A stretch of DNA of 64,000 nt from Sphingomonas sp. LR60 (GTDB taxonomy: Bacteria; Pseudomonadota; Alphaproteobacteria; Sphingomonadales; Sphingomonadaceae), in contig NZ_JASPFK010000001.1 of NCBI RefSeq assembly GCF_036855935.1, forward strand, positions 3,040,501 to 3,104,500. The letters run 5' to 3'. The notes under the pieces were generated by a model, which did no database searches, was not told the DNA's origin, and saw only the letters and a program-made list of their open reading frames with translations. Below, piece by piece: positions 34,309 to 45,160 of this stretch. The position numbers and the translations under genes are program-made. How positions within the stretch are numbered: the stretch's first letter is position 1; each line of letters begins with the position of its first letter.

Positions 34309-34612
34309 CGCTCTTCAAGCCCCCTTGATGGAAGGCCTTTGCAGCAGATGTGATTAAGGACCGGTATGGAAGATCAAGAAATCAGGGCAAAATCGCAAAA
34401 GCGCCCGACGCGGGAAGGCGCCCGACCGTCATTTGGCGAGATCTTGGCTGGCGAGTTCTTGGCTGGCGACATCGGCCGGGGCGGGCCCGCAGCCCGATGG
34501 CCGCGGGTGGTGGAAGGGGCTGCTGCCGGTACATGCTCATGAAACCCTTTAAAATCCGTCATTTTCTTCTGGTCTTGCGTGATCGGTGCCCCCTGCGGTG
34601 CCCCCAAGATTG
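34309..34612. other. Left prophage junction region; no gene recognised
   Basis: These 304 bases lie between the last host gene and the first prophage gene. The only structure I see is a direct repeat near 34588-34611 that reads GGGGGCACC-N3-GGGGGCACC on the minus strand (12-bp period). Such tandem repeats resemble arm-type sites of tyrosine integrases, but this is inference. No integrase and no obvious tRNA fragment is present, so the exact attachment core cannot be set. Confidence 0.45.
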
Positions 34613-36778: not shown

Positions 36779-37117
36779 GTGATTATCGGCGATCGAGTCA
36801 GAGAGCGGATGAACGCTAGTGAGCTTTCGCAGGCTGAGCTTGCACGGCGGGTTGGCGTGTCGCAGCCGACGATTTATAGCTTGGTTCACAGCAATAAGGT
36901 CGGGTCGAAGCATCTGCACAAGATTGCAAGGGTTCTTGGAACAACGCCAGCATACCTATCCGGCGAGACCGACGATCCGCTCTCAGATGCCCCTCCACCT
37001 CCTGAGCTCTCGACCGAGGAGATAGAGCTCATCGAGATTTTCCGGCGTTTGCAGCCGGCAATCAAAGGCGCCGCGATGATACTGCTTGGAGGCCTAGTGG
37101 ATCAGGCTTCCTCTTGA
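36779..37117 (+). CDS. XRE-family phage repressor
   Basis: The 112-aa product has an N-terminal lambda-repressor-like helix-turn-helix: VRERMNASELSQAELARRVGVSQPTIYSLVHSNKVGSKHLHKIARVLGTTPAYLSGETDD (residues about 5-65). An acidic linker and a short helical tail follow, possibly for oligomerisation. It lacks the LexA/CI-like protease domain, so induction by RecA-stimulated self-cleavage is not expected. The start is GTG. It should bind the palindromes at 36704 and 36752 and maintain lysogeny. Confidence 0.9.
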   Translation: MIIGDRVRERMNASELSQAELARRVGVSQPTIYSLVHSNKVGSKHLHKIARVLGTTPAYLSGETDDPLSDAPPPPELSTEEIELIEIFRRLQPAIKGAAMILLGGLVDQASS

Positions 37118-37120
37118 TCC

Positions 37121-37136
37121 AATAGGTAGAGCTATA
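37121..37136. promoter_or_regulatory. Possible third, degenerate operator
   Basis: AATAGGTAGAGCTATA, starting 4 bp after the repressor stop, shares the outer half-site bases with the two operators but is imperfect. The remaining gap up to 37227 holds nothing I can support. Confidence 0.35.
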
Positions 37137-37227
37137 TCAATTTGCGCTGTACCTAGCGATCGGTTTAGACCTGCAAGCACACATACCGGCGCGGGCTGCC
37201 GCGCCCTGCTCCATTTCCGGCCAGGGT

Positions 37228-37322
37228 GCGGGTACGGCGCGGGTACTGGCACGTTTTGACGCTCTGACATGCCAGCCTTCCCGCGGAGTTGTAATGACCG
37301 AGGCGGAGGATCTCTCCGCCTC
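37228..37322. repeat. Composite element copy A
   Basis: CGGGTA occurs at 37229 and 37240 (11-bp period). A 23-bp hairpin GAGGCGGAG-N5-CTCCGCCTC lies at 37300-37322, 60 bp after the second CGGGTA, about one helical turn farther than in the other copies. It is the first of five such elements that separate the accessory cargo of this prophage. There is no T-run after the hairpin, so it is not a classic terminator. No gene is visible between it and 37406. Confidence 0.75.
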
Positions 37323-37412
37323 AGCTGCGATCGAGGCACCTGTTAGCTAAGTAACCTGGCTTTTCTTGCTCTATGTGTACAACCGATCCGGACGATCCGT
37401 TAAGATTTGCCC

Positions 37413-37664
37413 GTGGGCAACTTGGCGAACTTACTGAATGTCACGCCAGATGAGCTGCGCGGCCCGGATGCGAGCACGCTGCGTCATGTGGCTTGGATCG
37501 CTCGTTCTAAGGCGAAGTCCCTCTTCAATCCCCAGCTTCCTGCAACGCCCCTCGAGGCAGCGGAGGCCGCGCTGCAAGGATTGGCAAACGAATTAGATGA
37601 GATCGCTGCTACGATAGAGGCTTGCGGCATCACCTCAGCTTGTGGCGGCAACAGCCCGCGTTGA
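37413..37664 (+). CDS. Small ORF, possible truncated helix-turn-helix protein
   Basis: From the GTG at 37413 the product is 83 aa. It begins GNLANLLNVTPDELRGPDAS, like the end of an XRE helix-turn-helix domain, and continues with a helical tail (AAEAALQGLANELDEIAATIEACGI). A TTG two codons earlier is an alternative start. The missing first half of the domain suggests a remnant or another frame error upstream. It is the only cargo between composite elements A and B. Confidence 0.45.
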   Translation: MGNLANLLNVTPDELRGPDASTLRHVAWIARSKAKSLFNPQLPATPLEAAEAALQGLANELDEIAATIEACGITSACGGNSPR

Positions 37665-37665
37665 G

Positions 37666-37749
37666 CGGGTGCCTGACGGGTACCATCGAGGCCGTTCGCC
37701 TCCTCCGCGAAGGGAGAAAGGTGACCGAGGCGGAGGGTCTCTCCGCCGC
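37666..37749. repeat. Composite element copy B
   Basis: CGGGTG at 37666 and CGGGTA at 37677 (11-bp period) are followed exactly 50 bp after the second by the hairpin GAGGCGGAG-N5-CTCCGCCGC at 37727-37749. It starts immediately after the stop codon of the small ORF and ends about 80 bp before the NYN gene. Nothing else is seen between 37750 and 37832. Confidence 0.78.
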
Positions 37750-37832
37750 GCTCATGCTTCGATCATTGGACCAAAATTGAATAGACGCGTGCCACTTTTC
37801 CTGTTTGATGGATCTGCAGAAAATCGAGGTAT

Positions 37833-38492
37833 ATGACGACTCGTCCGATCCCTGTTCACGTTCTAGTCGACTGGAACAGCGAGCTTCACGCTTTCAAAAA
37901 TCTTGGTGACAGGGAAAGTCCCGAGGTCGCCCGAAGAATATTGCGGTTACTCTGCCGCAATGTTGGAAAAATGCTTCACGATATTGCAGATGCCCAAGCG
38001 TTTTTTCTCCACTTCAGATTTTATAGTGGCTGGCGAATTCAATCTAAGGTTACGCGGAGACGGGATTCTCTCGAGGCGGCAAGGGTTTATGACCCAGCTA
38101 ACGTTCAAGATCGAGGCTTGGCGGAGTACTCGCCGAGGAGTTCGCAGGTGATCCGCTCCATTGCATTTGGCGATCGACTGCTCGGCGCCCGTGACGATCG
38201 ACTATGTGGCCCTAGGCTCGACCATCATCTACCTAGCACCTACCAGAAAAGCCGGGACGAGTTATGGGGTGAGAAAATGGTCGATACCGCTTTGATTTCT
38301 GACCTCCTACTTCTAGCAATCGAAAACGATGGAAGCTGGCTTGTTGTAGTCGGTCAGGACGCTGACCTGGTCCCAGGAATTCTTACGGCGGAGGGGCTGC
38401 TTCATGGTACAGACCGACGTACAATCTATTTTTCCCGTGGGGGCATCAACAACAGCAACCCCAAAATGATGGATCTGGTATGCCGGCGCTGA
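37833..38492 (+). CDS. NYN-domain (PIN-like) nuclease
   Basis: The 219-aa product has a beta-strand start HVLVDWNSE with Asp13 and Asn15, then KMVDTALISDLLLLA with Asp151 and Asp157, and WLVVVGQDADLVPGI with Asp176 and Asp178. That spacing and order of acidic residues is the active site of NYN/LabA-type PIN-fold nucleases, which usually cut RNA. GC content falls below that of the host. Its last 13 bp overlap the start of the NTPase gene, so the two are translated together. I propose it as the effector of an NTPase-controlled defence module; that is inference. Confidence 0.78.
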   Translation: MTTRPIPVHVLVDWNSELHAFKNLGDRESPEVARRILRLLCRNVGKMLHDIADAQAFFLHFRFYSGWRIQSKVTRRRDSLEAARVYDPANVQDRGLAEYSPRSSQVIRSIAFGDRLLGARDDRLCGPRLDHHLPSTYQKSRDELWGEKMVDTALISDLLLLAIENDGSWLVVVGQDADLVPGILTAEGLLHGTDRRTIYFSRGGINNSNPKMMDLVCRR

Positions 38493-40775
38493 CGCTAATT
38501 CTCGACGACCTGATGCCCTTCGCCGATTTCGGCAGCACCGCCGAAGAGGGAGATGGCTCATTCTCACTTTACCGTAACGGCCTTCTGACTGAGGTGGTGC
38601 CCACCGAAGCAGGCTACATCGTGCGCACGCCGCAGGAGCCAGAGCAACTCTTGAAGAACGCTGGTGCCTTGCTAGCTAGCAGTCGTTTCGCCGATCTCGG
38701 TCGCATCGCTCAGAACCAAGCGGTAGTGCTCGGAGCCGTACGCATGCGCAGCTCGCCAGTCCCGATCACAAGCGAATTGAAGCAGGTGGCCGGCTCAGTC
38801 CCGGACTTTATCGCAACAGCCGAACCTTGGAAGGCGCTCGACTCTTGGTTGCAGAACCTGGAGCAAACCAAGCAGGAGGACAGCATCGACCTCCTGCTCA
38901 TTGACGGGCCCGCGGGCGTCGGAAAGACCACTATCGTCCGGGAAGCTGCTCTTCTACGCGCCGAAAGCTACGATGGATCGCTTCCATTGATAGTGCAGAT
39001 TGTCAGCCGTGGTCGAGTATTACAAAACATCTCGGATCTAATTGCATTTGCCCTCCAAGACGTGAGAGCAAATCTTACGATTCGTGAGTTAATGGTCCTG
39101 ATACGACATGGCTTGATCACTCTAGCCATTGACGGCTTTGATGAACTCTCAGATCCTAATGGATTTCAAACAGCCTGGAGCGGCCTGAACACCCTATTTG
39201 AAGGCGCGCGCGGCGTTGCCACCATTCTGCTTGCTGGTCGCGAGACATTCATTTCAACTCAAACGATCCAACGACAGCTAACCTCTTTCCGGCCCACGAA
39301 CGATCGCCTAAGCTCTCTTTCATTAAGTGATCCCTATCCCGAAGCCGCCCGCGCTTGGCTTCTAAATCAGCCGGGTTGGAACGCGGATCTTCTTACCTTA
39401 GATTTTGTCGAGCCGATTTTCGTGTCGAAGTCGTACGCTTTACGCCCGTTCTTCCTCGACGTTATCGCACGCGAGCCCGATGCGCTCCGTGACAGCGAGC
39501 CGCCAGCTTCAGATCTTTTGACCTATCTGGTTGACGTGATGTCGCGGCGCGAAGCGCAGAAATTCTTCGAAAGCCTTGATCCTCCGAACGGGAACGAAGC
39601 AATCAAGGTGTATGGAGAGTATGTAGGCCGCTTCCTTGAGGAAGTGGCCCGCGATCTCGCAGAGAATCAGACCGACGCGCTTGCCGATGATGCCCTTGAT
39701 CTACTCGCAACAGTCGCTGCTAACGGCTTGCTGCCAGATGATCAAATACCGGCCGTTGTTCAACGCGCCAGAACAATCGTCTTTCTGGCAAACGATGTTC
39801 AGCCTGGTCATGTCCGTTTCGCGCATGAGCAGCTCCAGCAGCACTTTTAGCGCGAGAGGCGCTCCGCTCCGTCGGCGCTGGAGAGATACCGCGTTACGTG
39901 CGACGCAACCTCTTCGGCCGCGAGTCGCTGGAGGTTTTTGGCCATGTCGCGAAGGGAAGGCCGAACGACGCTATTTGCTTTTGGAAGCTGCTCGGAGAGT
40001 GATTGCCGCGCCGTCGCGCGATCGGACTGCAACAAATTTATCGGTTCTAGCTGTCGCGGCAGCTTGCGGAGCTTCTCCTGATGATGCCTCTTTGCACATT
40101 CGAGATGTCGGCATCAGTGAGGTGCACTTCCCATTTTCACCGCCGACAGGCATCACCTTTAAGGACACGGTGATAAGCATCTTGCACGCCTCTGGCGTTG
40201 ATTTGACAGCCGTGACCTTCGATAACGGGGTTAACATCGCGACCCTTGAGATGGATCGGCAAACCCTCCTTCCGTCATCATTTCCTCAACCTCAGCTAAT
40301 AGAAACTGGCGATCGAACGATAGCCGATCAACGTGAAATAAAGCAGATGCTCAACCCTGATGTTGCTGCAGAACAGAGCAACGAGCTAGAATGGTCAAAT
40401 GGCATGACTGAGCTTCTCGGCAGGGTCGAACGGTATCGCCCGTTTTGGTTGCGCACCAACATCGAGGACACGGATCCGCAGGGGCGGCGCATCATTTCGC
40501 ACGGAGACTGGCCGGCCCTGTACGAGGCCCTAAAGCAGCTCGATCTTGTTACAATCAGGTCACGTCAAGCGGCTGGAGTCCGAGCCGACTTCGTCCACTT
40601 CAAGCAAGATGTTAAGTTGTCCGTGTATGAGGAGCTTCACGCGCTTTTTAATGATGACTGTGCGGAGAGAGCATCGCCAACTAATCAGGCGTTAACTGCT
40701 GTCGCGCGAACACAAGCGGGTATTGATCGGGTACAATCACGACCTTTCACCCGATTTGTCGAGGACAAATTGTGA
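38480..40775 (+). CDS. NACHT/STAND-like P-loop NTPase with C-terminal repeat region (two apparent frame breaks)
   Basis: Walker A is GPAGVGKTT at residues 143-151 and Walker B is LAIDGFDEL with Asp218, Asp221 and Glu222, the hhhhDGhDE form seen in NACHT/STAND ATPases. The first frame stops at 39850 in HEQLQQHF; one more T in the T4 run there continues LAREALRSVGAGEIPRYVRRNLFGRESLEVFGHVAKG. One more G near 39955-39960 then joins ERRYLLLEAARRVIAAP and runs to 40775. The repaired protein is about 765 aa. A late segment (SEVHFPFSPPTGITFKDTVIS...DLTAVTFDNGVNIATLEMD) resembles pentapeptide-like beta-helix repeats. Likely a sensor or switch partner of the NYN protein. Confidence 0.7.
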
Positions 40776-40800
40776 GCGCGGCGGAGGGTTCCTCCGCCCT
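40717..40800. repeat. Composite element copy C
   Basis: CGGGTA at 40717 and 40728 (11-bp period) is followed exactly 50 bp after the second by the hairpin GCGGCGGAG-N5-CTCCGCCCT at 40778-40800. The CGGGTA pair lies inside the last codons of the NTPase gene (encoding AGIDRVQS), so the element overlaps coding sequence and the gene ends 2 bp before the hairpin. Confidence 0.78.
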
Positions 40801-40824
40801 ATTCGGAGCGCTGGCCGAGGCCAC

Positions 40825-41349
40825 TCACCGAAACTGCGCCCATACCGAATGGCCGCGCTTGATCAGCGCCGCCACGATCCAGCCATGGGCGAAGTGGGTC
40901 TCATGCGCTGGGTTTGTCTTCGCCGACACCGCCTCCTCCCAGAACCGCACCAGCAACGTCCGATCAGTGAGGAACGGCCGCAGCACGCGTAGCGCCAGAC
41001 GCACCGCTGGCGTCGACGCGTCATGCTGGCTTGCGCAGCACGCGGCATCCTTAAGCACGGTGAGCGCGAGGTTGATGACCAGCGTCTCGGCCCGGCGCGT
41101 GCGCAGCTCGCGGTCCGTACCGCCGAATGGGATGATCCCGATCGTCACGGCTGTGCGCTCGGGCGAGCATTTCCAGCACCAAGCGTCGCGCAGGAACACT
41201 TGCCAGTCGAGCGACTGGCGTTGGAAGCTGCGCTCGCGGATTAACTCCTCGAGGTCGCGTACCTTGACCGTCCCGCAGGCGGCGCAGGTCTGGCTGATCG
41301 ATCCATGAATTCTACGGACGTCGTAGAGCGTCTTGGGCTGGCCGACCAC
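40825..41349 (-). CDS. Hypothetical protein with a zinc-ribbon-like CxxC pair
   Basis: The 174-aa product contains QTCAACGTVKVRDLEELIRERSFQRQSLDWQVFLRDAWCWKCSPER, where CAAC and CWKC could bind one zinc ion. The rest is mostly helical and ends AHGWIVAALIKRGHSVWAQF. It is the downstream gene of a leftward pair in the segment between composite elements C and D, opposite in direction to the other cargo. I recognise no named family. Confidence 0.6.
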   Translation of the reverse strand: MVGQPKTLYDVRRIHGSISQTCAACGTVKVRDLEELIRERSFQRQSLDWQVFLRDAWCWKCSPERTAVTIGIIPFGGTDRELRTRRAETLVINLALTVLKDAACCASQHDASTPAVRLALRVLRPFLTDRTLLVRFWEEAVSAKTNPAHETHFAHGWIVAALIKRGHSVWAQFR

Positions 41350-41358
41350 ATCCGCAGG

Positions 41359-41562
41359 TTACGCGAGCGCCGGCAACGGCAATTGCTCACCGCGCACCAG
41401 CAGCACCGCGCGCGCCTGCATCGCGGCGTCGACCGCCTGGCGGTAGTGCACGGTCGCGCAGCGCTCGGCCTCGTCGAAGCCGATCGGCGACCAATCCTCG
41501 CTGGGATAGCAGGCGTCGTAGATCGCGCGCGCGGCTGCACGCAGCAGGAGGTCGTGCTCCAT
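41359..41562 (-). CDS. Small hypothetical protein, upstream partner of the zinc-ribbon gene
   Basis: The 67-aa product MEHDLLLRAAARAIYDACYPSEDWSPIGFDEAERCATVHYRQAVDAAMQARAVLL... is soluble, acidic and probably helical. It ends 9 bp before the next gene on the same strand. AAAGGAGC precedes its ATG on the minus strand, a strong ribosome binding site. Similar small proteins occur in phage early regions, but I cannot assign a function. Confidence 0.65.
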   Translation of the reverse strand: MEHDLLLRAAARAIYDACYPSEDWSPIGFDEAERCATVHYRQAVDAAMQARAVLLVRGEQLPLPALA

Positions 41563-41736
41563 GCCAAAGCTCCTTCGATGTCAATGCGCCGGCAATCGGC
41601 GATGCGGCAAGCTACGCTGATCGCCGTGTGATTCGCAAGAACATTGAGGGAACAAAGGTTCGAGGTCAACGCGGTCTGGTGGCGGCGCCTAGTGTCCGAT
41701 ACGGAATGGCGCGCGCCGCGCGGCTGGGCAGCGAGG

Positions 41737-41821
41737 CGGGTAACGGGCGGGTACATCGGGCCTGAAATTGCTTCCCATGCCCTGGGCAGAAGACGACCGA
41801 GGCGGAGCGATCCTTCGCGTC
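41737..41821. repeat. Composite element copy D (degenerate hairpin)
   Basis: CGGGTA at 41737 and 41748 (11-bp period) is followed 51 bp after the second by GAGGCGGAG-N5-CTTCGCGTC at 41799-41821, whose right arm has lost some pairing. It sits in the 347-bp gap between the leftward pair and the OLD nuclease gene, in the same orientation as the other copies. No gene is visible in 41563-41909. Confidence 0.7.
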
Positions 41822-41909
41822 AATGATCGCGATTGGTGGATTACGGACTAGTCGATTGAGATTTCACGGCTGCATTCCCAGCCGTTCGTTCACCCGCTAG
41901 ACTGCTTAC

Positions 41910-43802
41910 ATGGAACTCTTCTCCGTCACGATCTCCGGCTTTCGCAAAATCGCACGCAAGGCCACACTTCGCACTAATGGCAAGGCGCTTGCACTCGTGG
42001 GCCCGAATGAAGCCGGGAAGTCGTCGGTGCTGGACGCGATCCGGTCGCTGGGCAACTCTGAAGCGTTCGAGGTGGCCGATGTATCGCGCGGTATGGGCGA
42101 GGACGATTTGGAGATAGTAGGGCGCTTTCTCCTTGATGATGACGAGCTGGAAGTCGCCGGACTGTCAGGGCCCAGCTGGCTGCAGGTCTACAAAGAATTC
42201 AGTGGCCGTCGCTCATATGGGTTCGTTCCATCACCGCCGGCTCGGGACACTAGTCACCGGGTGGTTGCGATCGATACGCTTGTCCAGCTTCTTGGGACGC
42301 GCGAGTTTGGCAATCAGCTCAGCGCGGACCTGCTGGCGCTCTTAAAAGAGTCGATAGAACAGGTGCGTGACGCCGGCTCAGATATGGATGCTGAGACGTT
42401 GAAAACAGTGCGCTCGGCAGTATCAGCGCTGAAAGACCTGACAGCGCTGCTGCCTGAGCTTGAGACCCTCGTCGTGGCGACTCGGCTCTGGACGGAGCTG
42501 GCAGAGATCGAGCGGGCACCGAACCCGGTTCGACGTGCGATCAACTCGCTTCATGATCGAGTGCCTACAATATTGTTCTTTGACGAGGATGCGAGAAATC
42601 TCGCATCTACTTACTCGATACAGCATCTAAGGCAAAAAATGCCGCGTGCGCTGCAGTCTCTGCTGGTGCTTGCCGACCTGAGACCCGACGATGTGTTCGC
42701 CGCGATTGATGCCAACGATACTGCCCGGCTTACGACCTTGGAGCATCGAGCTAACCGAACGCTCGAACGCAGCTTTAAGGAAGCGTGGCGCCAATCCGGT
42801 ATCGCAGTTGCGCTGCGGCTCACTCTTGTGCAACTGGACATACAGGTCATCAATGAGCAATCAGATTTTACGCCATTAGCTGAGCGTAGCGACGGGCTCC
42901 GACAATTCGTCGCTCTTCATTCGTTTATTTCAATCAGTAGGGCGGACCGACCTGTTCTCCTGATCGACGAGGCCGAGCAAAAACTACACTATGATGCACA
43001 AGCTGACCTTGTGCAGATGTTGACCCGGCAACGTGTCGCCTCGAAGGTAATTTTCACGACGCACTCGGCCGGCTGCCTGCCTGAGGATCTCGGCCACGGA
43101 GTGCGCTTGGTGCAGCCGTGCACTGACGACGTCACGTGCAGCGCGATTGTCAACAAGTTCTGGGCTCAGGGCAGCGGCGGGTTCTCGCCTCTCCTTTTTG
43201 GGATGGGCGCGACCACACTGGCGTTCTTTCCGACCCGGCATGCCGTCTGCGTCGAGGGTCCAGGCGACATGCTGCTGTACCCCACAATGTTTCGCGAGGC
43301 GTTGAAGGTGCATGATCTCGGTTTTCAGGTGGTTCCAAACTTGTCGTCCGCGGCGCGTGGGCTGATGCCGCTGCTGCCCGAGGAGGCAAGCGGAATTGCC
43401 TTCTTGGTCGACGGAGACAATGGGGGCCTTGCAATAAGGGAAAGTCTTCTCGAGGAAGGGCTAAATGCCGAACGCATCATCATTCTCGGCGAGAGTGAAG
43501 GGCTTGAACTAGAAGATTTTGTGGCGCCTGAGTTGCTCCTGAGGGCGGCAAATTCGCTTATCAACCGTCATCACAGCGCCGCCGATCCGCTCGGCGCCGA
43601 CGTAGTCGCCGGCGCACGGCGAATGGCGGCGCTGGAGCAGGCGTATGCAAATTCGACGGGGGTTGCGCTTCCAAAAGTCGAACTCGCATACGAGCTTCTC
43701 GACTTACTAGACGTGGATCCGAGCCTGCACCTGCTGGATGCGGGTAGAAGCGCCGAACTTAAAGAAATCGCTTTAAAGGTGATGGCGGCTGTGGGCGCCT
43801 GA
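41910..43802 (+). CDS. OLD-family ATP-dependent nuclease (ABC ATPase plus TOPRIM)
   Basis: The 630-aa product opens with an SMC/RecF-like ATPase: ISGFRKIARKATLRTNGKALALVGPNEAGKSSVLDAIRSL (Walker A at residues 31-39), and LLIDEAEQKLH near residue 350 (Walker B) with THSAGCLP after it. A TOPRIM domain follows: VCVEGPGDMLLYP near 446 (catalytic Glu) and AFLVDGDNGG near 498 (DxD). This is the OLD layout of phage P2 Old and GajA. No UvrD-like gajB partner is next to it, so I read it as a stand-alone OLD defence or exclusion gene carried by the prophage. Confidence 0.85.
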   Translation: MELFSVTISGFRKIARKATLRTNGKALALVGPNEAGKSSVLDAIRSLGNSEAFEVADVSRGMGEDDLEIVGRFLLDDDELEVAGLSGPSWLQVYKEFSGRRSYGFVPSPPARDTSHRVVAIDTLVQLLGTREFGNQLSADLLALLKESIEQVRDAGSDMDAETLKTVRSAVSALKDLTALLPELETLVVATRLWTELAEIERAPNPVRRAINSLHDRVPTILFFDEDARNLASTYSIQHLRQKMPRALQSLLVLADLRPDDVFAAIDANDTARLTTLEHRANRTLERSFKEAWRQSGIAVALRLTLVQLDIQVINEQSDFTPLAERSDGLRQFVALHSFISISRADRPVLLIDEAEQKLHYDAQADLVQMLTRQRVASKVIFTTHSAGCLPEDLGHGVRLVQPCTDDVTCSAIVNKFWAQGSGGFSPLLFGMGATTLAFFPTRHAVCVEGPGDMLLYPTMFREALKVHDLGFQVVPNLSSAARGLMPLLPEEASGIAFLVDGDNGGLAIRESLLEEGLNAERIIILGESEGLELEDFVAPELLLRAANSLINRHHSAADPLGADVVAGARRMAALEQAYANSTGVALPKVELAYELLDLLDVDPSLHLLDAGRSAELKEIALKVMAAVGA

Positions 43803-43997
43803 CGATCGCTTCGACTTGTTCAGCTTAGCTTCCGTCAGCGGCTTTCAGATATATACCAATGCCAATCAATCACGCTCCTGTCTGCCGCTGCACTTGGCCG
43901 ATCGATGTTAAAACTTGAACTTGAACGATTGACAGGACTGGGGGAGGACCAAGGTGCGCCGAACATCGCTTTCTGAGCGGAAGCAGACGAGCGTTTG

Positions 43998-44081
43998 CGG
44001 GTATCCGACGGGTATAATCGGTGCCGATCGCCCTCATGCCCTAGGATGAGAGGCGATTGAGGCGGAGGGCCTCTCCGCCTC
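43998..44081. repeat. Composite element copy E
   Basis: CGGGTA at 43998 and 44009 (11-bp period) is followed exactly 50 bp after the second by the perfect 9-bp-stem hairpin GAGGCGGAG-N5-CTCCGCCTC at 44059-44081. In this copy the second repeat runs into TATAAT. It lies in the 349-bp gap between the OLD gene and the IHF/HU-like gene, which contains no other feature I can support. Confidence 0.78.
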
Positions 44082-44151
44082 GGTCAACCAGCCGTCTTGG
44101 CTTGAGTATCTTCGGCTTTGCTCAGCGTCAGCGCGGCCCCTCGAAGATCCG

Positions 44152-44454
44152 TCAGCGTTTAAGCGGTGAAGACGACGCAGCGTTCAGAAGGATCTGCAGG
44201 TCTCTGCCAGCCCGGAAGAGCGGTCTACGGAATGCCTCCACCTCGACCGACACGCCAGTCTTGGGGTTTCTTCCAGTTCGCGCTTGTTGGGGACGAGTAG
44301 TGAACGTGCCGAAGCCCCGCAGTTCGACACGACCACCTTTAGACAGGCGATCGATAATCTCGTCGAAAAAGACGGAGACGATCGCGTCCACATCCTTAGC
44401 GTTGAGGGTGGAATTCCCCTCCAGCAAGGCGCTTTTCAGCTCCGAGCGAATCAC
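44152..44454 (-). CDS. IHF/HU-family DNA-bending protein
   Basis: The 100-aa product has the HU/IHF pattern: MIRSELKSALLEGNSTLNAKDVDAIVSVFFDEIIDRLSKGGRVELRGFGTFTTRPQQARTGRNPKTGVSVEVEAFRRPLFRAGRDLQILLN. The GRNPKTG beta-arm tip and RGFGTF turn are diagnostic. Overall it is closer to IHF-beta than to HU. As a prophage-borne copy it could serve packaging, regulation or site-specific recombination. It is leftward, directly beyond composite element E. Confidence 0.88.
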   Translation of the reverse strand: MIRSELKSALLEGNSTLNAKDVDAIVSVFFDEIIDRLSKGGRVELRGFGTFTTRPQQARTGRNPKTGVSVEVEAFRRPLFRAGRDLQILLNAASSSPLKR

Positions 44455-44737
44455 TCATTCTTCTCCATCGCCTGGTTGATTGACCTGATGTAAGTCAGGC
44501 TCTGACTGCGTCTGCCGTCCTCAGATAACGATTGCAAACACACAACGGGTGACGGGAGCGTGACAATTTTTACAACTATCCTTTGAGCATGGACGATCGC
44601 TAGCGATTCCTCTGCGATCACAGCGGGGTCGGATTTCCAATATAAGGTTTTGGCAATGGCTCAAACGGCGGCGGCGCCTCGCCTCGGCCCGCTCCTCGTC
44701 ACTTTCAATTTAACAAGGGTCCCGCTATGTTCCGTGG

Positions 44738-45160
44738 ATGGGTGTTCCTCATGCATTGACAATCGAGGATGCCCGCCCGGCGAGCCGGCGGGACGAGGCT
44801 TACGACTTCATCCGATCGTACATCGTGCGGCACGGCCACAGCCCCTCGATGGAGGACGTCCGCATCGCGCTCGGCGTCAGCAAGACGCGGGCGAAGGCGT
44901 TGGTTCACCAGCTCGCCACGGCCAAGATGATTGAGCGCGTGCCCGGCGCTCAGCGCGGCATCAGCATTCCCGGCCTCTTCCGTCAGCTGGTGCTCGATGA
45001 GCTGCGGCGCGATGGGTATGTCGTCGACGCCGACGTCGTTTCGGGCGGGCCGTGTACTCAAGGTCATCTGCCCCTGATCGCGATCCTGGAGCATGTCCCT
45101 GGCCTCGTAGCCGGGGACCATCATGACCAATCAGAACACGGCGGCACTGCCCGCCTTTAG
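44738..45160 (+). CDS. LexA-like winged-helix DNA-binding protein
   Basis: The first half (RRDEAYDFIRSYIVRHGHSPSMEDVRIALGVSKTRAKALVHQLATAKMIERVPGAQRGISI) matches a LexA-type N-terminal winged helix. The C-terminal half has no Ser/Lys protease motif, so it cannot self-cleave like LexA. The exact start among several close options (44738 is an ATG) is uncertain. It opens the rightward prophage transcript and overlaps the next gene by 38 bp. A 283-bp gap upstream (44455-44737) should hold its promoter, which I cannot place. Confidence 0.7.
   Translation: MGVPHALTIEDARPASRRDEAYDFIRSYIVRHGHSPSMEDVRIALGVSKTRAKALVHQLATAKMIERVPGAQRGISIPGLFRQLVLDELRRDGYVVDADVVSGGPCTQGHLPLIAILEHVPGLVAGDHHDQSEHGGTARL

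Follow-up and report, generated by a model that had tools for sequence, protein, structure and literature searches.

Composite hexamer–palindrome elements as candidate recombination sites of a phage-borne cassette system in Sphingomonas

Promoter/stem-loop cassettes, or PeSLs, were reportedly described in T4-like phages by Arbiol (2010) and Comeau (2014). The attC sites of integrons carry boxes of the consensus RYYYAAC ... GTTRRRY. Integron integrases are classed with the simple recombinases (PMC8138268), and integrons have been reported in phages (PMC9892861). In the attL region of KplE1, a tRNA-inserted prophage, the integrase promoter is overlapped by arm-type sites (PMC2951348). Prophages gather defence genes at fixed hotspots and exchange them there by a route that is still an open question; work on the P2/P4 hotspots defers the recombination pathway to later experiments (PMC9122126).

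Here we analyse an array of five composite elements in a Sphingomonas prophage that we read as the likely sites of recombination in an integron-like cassette system carried by phage (probability roughly 0.6). With a defined site, a candidate enzyme and joints that can be predicted, exchange at such hotspots becomes testable. If the reading is true, cassette handling of the integron kind evolved twice, the second time from attachment-site integrases, and accessory genes could be mined with the element model. Our search of titles and abstract openings returned no paper describing this element.

Composite elements in slot 1 of the prophage

The window, by which we mean the whole 64,000-nucleotide stretch analysed, is positions 3,040,501–3,104,500 of contig NZ_JASPFK010000001.1 (GCF_036855935.1) from Sphingomonas sp. 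LR60. Its array comprises five elements, each consisting of two CGGGTA-type hexamers 11 bp apart, a spacer and a hairpin of 9-5-9 layout: A (37229–37322; hexamer pair 37229–37245, hairpin 37300–37322), B (37666–37749; 37666–37682, 37727–37749), C (40717–40800; 40717–40733, 40778–40800), D (41737–41821; 41737–41753, 41799–41821, the hairpin with two mismatches to consensus) and E (43998–44081; 43998–44014, 44059–44081). Four contain exact CGGGTA-N5-CGGGTA and one CGGGTG-N5-CGGGTA. The sequence-only reading had listed all five composites; the first begins one base later than the 37228 given there, and both the shared orientation (all on the + strand) and the spacing between second hexamer and hairpin (60, 50, 50, 51 and 50 bp in A to E) were confirmed. 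With up to three mismatches, the hairpin pattern occurs five times in the window, at A to E, against 0.23 expected; the hexamer-pair pattern, with up to two, occurs nine times against 2.70. In the organism's own genome the strict composite pattern has five matches, all at this array, and its reversed control has none. Just 5′ of the right border gene, positions 44660–44690 (+) may hold the hairpin remnant of a sixth element: homology to a related prophage (L172) starts at 44667, facing the hairpin of that prophage's last element, and the covariance model did not detect a match there.

The array occupies slot 1 of a tRNA-integrated temperate phage, bounded on the left by an HTH_3 repressor-like gene (36779–37117, +) and on the right by a gene for a protein with a LexA-type DNA-binding domain (44738–45160, +). 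Its cargo begins with a small ORF (37407–37664, +) and a 219-aa ORF (37833–38492, +), both without a family match. There follow an NTPase region (38480–40775, +), in which the NTPase ORF at 38480–39850 overlaps a second ORF at 39636–40775 in a different frame, a leftward pair of 174 and 67 aa (40825–41562, −; no family match), a 630-aa OLD/AbiLi/AriA-like ATPase (41910–43802, +) and an HU/IHF-family protein (44152–44454, −). Pfam places a NACHT domain in the NTPase, and the OLD-like gene is recognised by AAA_21/AAA_15 (Pfam) and by the PADLOC models AriA, AbiLi, GajA and Old. The proposed NYN nuclease (219 aa) and zinc-ribbon protein (174 aa) had no Pfam match at E ≤ 0.001. The prophage cargo is accessory, and part of it resembles anti-phage defence genes; the idea of an array devoted to defence was too narrow, as its range is not limited to defence.

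A 15-bp attL core lies at 34508–34522, and the identical 15 bp end a tRNA-Tyr gene in another locus (L161, 11420–11434). About 60 bp from this core, two CGGTGCCCCC direct repeats 12 bp apart (34584–34605) probably serve the tRNA-site integrase of this prophage as arm-type sites, and they offer a yardstick for the elements.

Distribution and cargo turnover

With a covariance model the element was detected in 81 of the 295 genus genomes, frequently as arrays. Counts rest on 198 of 256 matches. Loci beyond the window and L161–L240 were excluded as overlapping or viral, and so were matches that covered just the hairpin half and some ten full-length matches lying on the opposite strand across a kept element's palindrome. 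Up to 14 candidates were scored per genome, so copy numbers per genome are lower bounds; genes were called with a simple in-house caller. Adjacent elements lie on the same strand in 114 pairs and on opposite strands in 3, a ratio that depends on leaving out those roughly ten overlapping matches, and same-strand neighbours are mostly 0.3–4 kb apart, a distance of one or a few genes. Total length is about 90–100 bp, with well-conserved blocks and a covarying palindrome; among 195 elements, 72 measure 88–91 bp, 93 measure 98–101 bp and 12 measure 92–97 bp. The two lengths may represent two lineages; elements of both lengths went into the model.

The phage genes fix the orientation of the elements, and we set aside a replichore effect on that ground. 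In loci that hold the border genes, the repressor family lies upstream on the element's strand in 26 of 26 and the LexA-like family downstream in 26 of 26 (three of the latter counted inside an array), and the elements point the same way as these rightward genes. A palindrome pattern beside some elements had 0 matches in the organism's own genome and 0–17 in ten others (≤2 mismatches), and a genus-wide REP was rejected. The arrays may extend beyond phages: two (L162 and L165) lie among genes that, in the few scanned, gave no phage match. Arrays in such settings are possibly prophage remnants, and another, which holds a broken LexA-like relative (L163), may be one too.

Cargo changes between related prophages coincide with element edges, as the sequence-only reading had anticipated. 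Homology between loci ends at elements in 49 of 691 cases, compared with a mean of 0.435 and a maximum of 3 in 200 shifts. The suggestion that the hairpin marks a boundary gains from the left ends in register with the element, 14 of 21 of which begin at the palindrome. Among 46 right ends in register, 17 terminate no more than 5 bp from where the element ends and 11 more stop 24–40 bp past it; a joint at the palindrome does not suit 11 of these 46 or 7 of the 21 left ends. The ends are not independent, because many come from one 84-aa cargo family. Related prophages retain the slot flanks (83–96% identity) with differing cargo, and in one pair (L172 and L164) both flanks of slot 1 are kept around different cargo. 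Two genomes, at loci L167 and L168, have four blocks in common (98–100% identity), in reversed order and unchanged orientation. Only 6–11 bp are common at their junctions, and these, the best resolved, lie in palindromes 20–40 bp outside the elements and not in the element's own palindrome. One cargo of about 590 bp recurs behind an element at three sites: slot 2 of the window prophage, slot 1 of L183, and L173. A search for near-identical pairs in viral contigs yielded 0 loci through the LexA-like gene and 5 through the integrase; none of 14 pairs among ten further loci had a clean one-cassette difference, and a 2.3-kb difference (L302 versus L307) includes part of the integrase.

A candidate integrase and rival explanations

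Slot 2 sits upstream of a tyrosine integrase, S2, with an arm-binding domain (Arm-DNA-bind_3 with Phage_int_M; Phage_integrase below its cut-off). In NCBIfam its only match at E ≤ 0.01 is PRK09692, below that model's cut-off. A same-strand element match lies upstream of S2 at 25 of 30 loci fetched by the integrase, 22 of them full-length, and is absent at the other 5; none was found at eight control integrases. Ten of the prophages fetched carry S2 and a second integrase: the element is upstream of S2 in nine, and a tRNA gene is at the other integrase in nine. S2 and the tRNA-type integrases form separate clades in the tree (support 100/100). The tRNA-type enzymes have GGGGGCA-type repeats before the start codon, often 11 bp apart; a 6-base repeat at exactly 11 bp precedes 13 of 20 (0.79 expected), and 10-bp spacing is also raised (6 versus 0.67 expected). 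Given these repeats in a relative of S2, the CGGGTA pair is probably an arm-type site and a candidate for binding by S2; the earlier suggestion that the hexamers are recombinase arm sites therefore appears likely. Apart from the elements, no CGGGTA pairs were seen near slot-2 integrases.

In 49 genomes S2 is found together with the LexA-like gene, and 23 genomes have elements and neither gene. Because of this co-occurrence, association between genomes cannot separate the enzyme from the phage family, and we discarded it as proof of the recombinase. Eight S2-scored genomes lack elements; two (G114 and G118) fall in the tRNA clade, and searching the locus by itself revealed an element in a third (G268) and a marginal one in a fourth (G113).

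If S2 acts on the elements, the hexamer direct repeat would bind its arm domain, and strands would be exchanged at or near the palindrome; the crossover may fall within this palindrome or within others immediately flanking the element. Recombination between two co-oriented sites would release a circle that could re-enter at another element, so that accessory genes would be inserted, lost or reshuffled. Two spacer lengths about 10 bp apart would keep arm and core on the same helix face, and an IHF-like cargo protein could bend the spacer. Palindrome centres differ between elements, a difference that many tyrosine recombinases would not tolerate.

The elements could instead be regulatory or neutral linkers like PeSLs, with modules swapped by homologous recombination and no dedicated enzyme, which we consider unlikely. 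Their size and conserved blocks, and homology ends in or beside them, would suit such linkers, as would TATAAT or TACAAT after the second hexamer in some copies only. The first downstream gene lies on the element's strand in just 96 of 190 scored cases, which weakens a promoter for each gene; with 78 of 109 slot-1 cargo genes on that strand, the earlier alternative of a repeated regulatory unit is weakened but keeps some support. The 6–11 bp common to the L167/L168 junctions are short for homologous recombination, and linkers leave aside the element's place upstream of one integrase clade, its absence at control integrases and the resemblance of the hexamer pair to that family's repeats. For PeSLs themselves, a role in module shuffling among T4-like phages has been reported (PMC4503421).

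A still less probable reading is tandem accretion, with the elements as old attL and attR sites of small integrative elements and the arrays as fossils. Accretion of elements that keep att sites and lose the integrase has been described (PMC5704250), the element is laid out like an attachment site and the window prophage's S2 gene is frame-broken; yet 109 cargo genes in 18 slot-1 arrays include no integrase of the S2 family, neighbour spacing leaves room for one or a few genes, and near-identical blocks reordered in the same orientation point to recent activity. Least credible, in our view, is an element acting as RNA in the rightward phage transcript, such as a put-like antiterminator or an insulator. 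It would account for the palindrome's covariation, for the excess of G-T over A-C mismatches (79 versus 56) and for alignment with the rightward border genes in 26 of 26 loci. We found two-hairpin folds in C, E and L122/L127, but the folding of B and D did not surpass that of shuffles, and put-like antitermination was rejected. The consensus fold (RNAalifold) supports one hairpin, plus pairing within the hexamers that we judged spurious; the spacer fold is not conserved, and the 10-bp step between the two lengths points to duplex DNA. Rfam returned nothing at gathering score across 36900–44700 and a single sub-threshold match, away from the elements. An intrinsic terminator was also dismissed, with no T run (T ≤ 0.32 at each of ten positions after the element).

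Comparison with known systems

The recombination-site reading places the system beside several described ones. At P2/P4 hotspots, too, the accessory and defence genes vary within one fixed slot of the phage, beside an integrase gene, although no repeated element is mentioned in the accessible part of that report (PMC9122126). KplE1-type attL sites also have arm-type repeats tens of base pairs from the core, beside the integrase start (PMC2951348), whereas the present elements occur in many copies per genome, far from the integrase and with cargo between them. PeSLs are short composite elements that place a stem-loop between the genes of variable phage regions (PMC4503421); our elements differ in having no consistent promoter or gene strand, an integrase link, an arm-like repeat and a tRNA-integrated temperate host phage that is not T4-like. 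In CIMEs, att-like sites flank recombinase-free DNA (PMC5704250), and here too direct att-like sites, putatively arm-like in layout, enclose 109 slot-1 genes that include no integrase of this family. Here, however, the cassettes comprise one or a few genes, an integrase lies beside one slot, and both fixed slots are inside the phage genome; its tRNA attachment site lies elsewhere, and the slots are not in a host target gene.

The likeness to integrons covers several features: accessory cassettes that are mostly small, neighbours separated by single co-oriented sites, an integrase beside one array, and cassettes common to several arrays and reordered without inversion. The sequence-only proposal of an integron-like cassette array survives in that cargo exchange has its edges at elements, and fails as integron membership. 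The attC boxes were found in 0 of 198 elements on either strand (shuffles: mean 0.38, maximum 3), S2 has an arm-binding domain in place of the simple architecture of IntI-type recombinases, the sites resemble duplex arm-plus-core sites and cargo lies on both strands. The best reading is a system that works like an integron and is not one. We would give even odds that it represents a new cassette-collecting class, in which a phage arm-binding tyrosine integrase, of its own clade next to the tRNA-site enzymes, serves repeated double-stranded sites, each with an arm repeat, a phased spacer and a core palindrome, to stock and rearrange accessory and defence genes in two fixed slots, and in which nothing is owed to IntI or attC.

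Anatomy and distribution of the element

Five composite elements, A to E (37229..44081, all on the forward strand), each a pair of CGGGTA-type hexamers 11 bp apart followed by a spacer and a 9-5-9 palindrome, are present where the sequence-only reading had placed them, with one start off by a base. The hairpin pattern matched five times in the window (0.23 expected), and the strict composite pattern had no further match elsewhere in the genome. With a covariance model (R1) built on an alignment (A2) of 28 copies, five from the window and 23 that an exact-pattern search had retrieved from other Sphingomonas genomes or viral contigs, we detected the element in 81 of 295 genomes of the genus (E up to 0.01). 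In a family sample of 298 genomes (E up to 0.001), matches fell in LR60 itself and in six genomes of other genera, three of which carry two copies 27–30 kb apart on one strand. A literature search at the level of titles and abstract openings gave no earlier description of the element.

Across the 198 copies kept from 81 loci, adjacent elements share a strand in 114 cases versus 3 on opposite strands, and none lies wholly within a called gene with 60 bp to spare. Among 190 scored cases, the element shares its strand with the first downstream gene in 96 and with the last upstream gene in 114. Sequence conservation does not extend beyond the element. The palindrome covaries, most clearly at its second pair (126 Watson–Crick combinations versus a shuffle maximum of 102) and ninth pair (149 versus 128); the first (132 versus 131) and eighth (186 versus 185) barely exceed the shuffle maximum, and Watson–Crick counts at the remaining five are not above shuffles. 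Palindrome centers vary between elements. Element length is bimodal (n = 195), with 72 copies at 88–91 bp, 93 at 98–101, 12 at 92–97 and 18 elsewhere. Ten base pairs make one helical turn, and this difference would fit proteins assembled as a complex on duplex DNA; one insertion setting two lineages apart would give the same picture.

Prophage setting, slots and cargo

A 15-bp repeat at 34508 has a second copy 40.9 kb away in L161, beside an integrase, where it forms the 3' end of a tRNA-Tyr gene. The window array thus lies inside a prophage, and L161 holds the right end of that prophage. Two further elements (L161 6378 and 7083) are near this right end, as is an S2-type integrase that aligns as two pieces in different frames (L161 7846–9031). 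An intact tRNA-Tyr integrase of another clade occupies L161 9992–11260. Because the S2 gene of this prophage is frame-broken, its array may be a fossil or may be served by another phage's enzyme.

Elements occupy two recurrent slots. Slot 1 lies between an HTH_3 repressor-like gene and a LexA-like gene; both borders are found in 18 loci, with one to six elements each, all co-oriented, and 78 of 109 slot-1 cargo genes are on the element's strand. Slot 2 lies upstream of S2, a tyrosine integrase with Arm-DNA-bind_3 and Phage_int_M domains. In L044 and L127, TTCGTGCTTTC, part of the integrase leader, begins at most about 10 bp after the palindrome; L190, L191 and L181 have 0.14–0.33 kb more between the two. 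Some arrays (L162, L163 and L165) sit amid TonB receptor, MreB, EAL/GGDEF and transporter genes. These may be prophage remnants, among them L163, which has a broken LexA-like relative close to its array. In L181, L187 and L302, slot 1, the LexA-like or neighboring genes, an element and S2 all fall within about 5–9 kb, a span too small for structural genes, so these are possibly satellite-like elements.

A restriction of the cargo to defense genes is not supported: defense-like cargo is frequent, but not universal. The window carries a NACHT NTPase, an OLD/AbiLi/AriA-like ATPase and an HU/IHF-family protein. Among ten larger cargo proteins from other loci, five matched PADLOC models (REase_II, MTase_II, IetS, PDC-S49 and SoFic) and one further protein has a HEPN/Toprim assignment in Pfam, which also assigns ArsB, a chemotaxis signaling domain, an acyltransferase and a protease to the remaining four; SRAP and Imm11 also appeared in domain scans of the loci. 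At 38480–40775, a second long reading frame follows and overlaps that of the NACHT NTPase, is out of frame with it and extends into element C, suggesting either a frame break or a pair of genes. The HU/IHF-family protein (44152–44454) scored highest against IHF-beta models, below the cut-off, and could supply an IHF-like bender as a helper of such sites. Element E and a homologous stretch recur in L166 at 75% identity.

Cargo turnover at element edges and reordering of blocks

The expectation that cargo changes at element edges was borne out. When all loci were compared, 49 of the 691 ends of homology had an element no more than 30 bp away in each of the two sequences; random shifting, repeated 200 times, placed 0.435 there on average and never more than 3. 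Among ends in register with an element, left ends begin at the palindrome in 14 of 21 cases, at 42 to 11 bp ahead of the element end, and further upstream in the other 7. The 46 right ends stop no more than 5 bp from the element end in 17 cases, at 15–18 bp before it in 7, at 24–40 bp beyond it in 11 and further upstream in 11. These ends are not independent, as many come from one 84-aa cargo family. The window and L172 are 95–96% identical from the LexA-like gene on and 89% beyond the repressor, and their arrays have no cargo in common; L164 shows the same pattern at 83–85% identity. Part of the leftward pair between C and D (41253–41663) recurs at 86% identity at the far, chromosome-side end of the L172 prophage, and no element was detected at that copy. 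One cargo segment of about 590 bp is found after an element in three places, namely slot 2 of the window's prophage (L161), slot 1 of L183, and L173 (84–85% identity). L173 and L174 are 93% identical until 5 bp past a common array-start element and divergent after it.

L167 and L168 share four blocks in the orders W-Z-Y-X and X-Y-Z-W with orientation unchanged, three at 99.9–100% identity and one as segments of 98.0–99.6%. Two excision and re-insertion steps can account for these orders; one inversion cannot. Five junctions have ...TGGGCG in common and five ...AAAGCGGA. All sit in palindromes just outside the elements, and so favor site-specific exchange without favoring a cut in the element's own palindrome. 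Such outer palindromes, GTCCG-N4-TGGG...AAGCGGAC, occur just before or after some elements (L167, L168, L169, L177 and L192), with 25 strong matches in the 81 loci versus 3 in the control. They are the joints of the reordered blocks. Turnover and reordering are comparative traces rather than observed recombination.

Integrase S2, putative arm-type sites and known systems

Elements occur in 51 of the 59 genomes (among 295) with an integrase match at E below 1e-99 versus 30 of the 236 others (Fisher 1.8e-27), the latter comprising 18 of 117 with weaker integrase matches only and 12 of 119 with none. Forty-nine genomes have both S2 and the LexA-like gene (45 of them with elements), 10 have S2 only (6 with elements) and 9 the LexA-like gene only (6 with elements); because of this co-occurrence, the genome-level association cannot separate the enzyme from the phage family. 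Elements are also present in 23 genomes that lack both the LexA-like gene and S2, even when truncated S2 copies are included. The link is sharper at the level of loci, where a same-strand element match lies upstream in 25 of 30 integrase-fetched loci, 22 of them full-length. In ten two-integrase prophages, an element precedes S2 in nine and a tRNA gene adjoins the other integrase in nine; among eight control integrases, none has an element and seven have a tRNA gene. The two types form separate clades (support 100/100). Given this split in context and clade, it is probably the tRNA-side enzyme that carries out prophage integration, which would leave S2 free for another task.

Integrases of the tRNA type have upstream repeats such as TGGGGGCATTTTGGGGGCAC; within 100 nt upstream, 13 of 20 have direct repeats of 6 bases whose spacing is exactly 11 bp (0.79 expected); 10-bp spacing is also enriched (6 versus 0.67). 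The L282 sequence GGGGGTATATCGGGGGTACGG is close to the element class GGGGTATCGCCGGGGTAC, and in the attL of the window's own prophage CGGTGCCCCC stands twice at a 12-bp spacing, some 60 bp away from the att core. By analogy with these repeats, the hexamer pair of the element would be an arm-type site.

The array had been read as integron-like, and it would work like an integron. It departs from one in its sites, which lack the attC boxes found there, and in S2, which differs from the type of integrase described for integrons (PMC8138268). The closest known process is the accretion of cis-mobilizable elements (PMC5704250).
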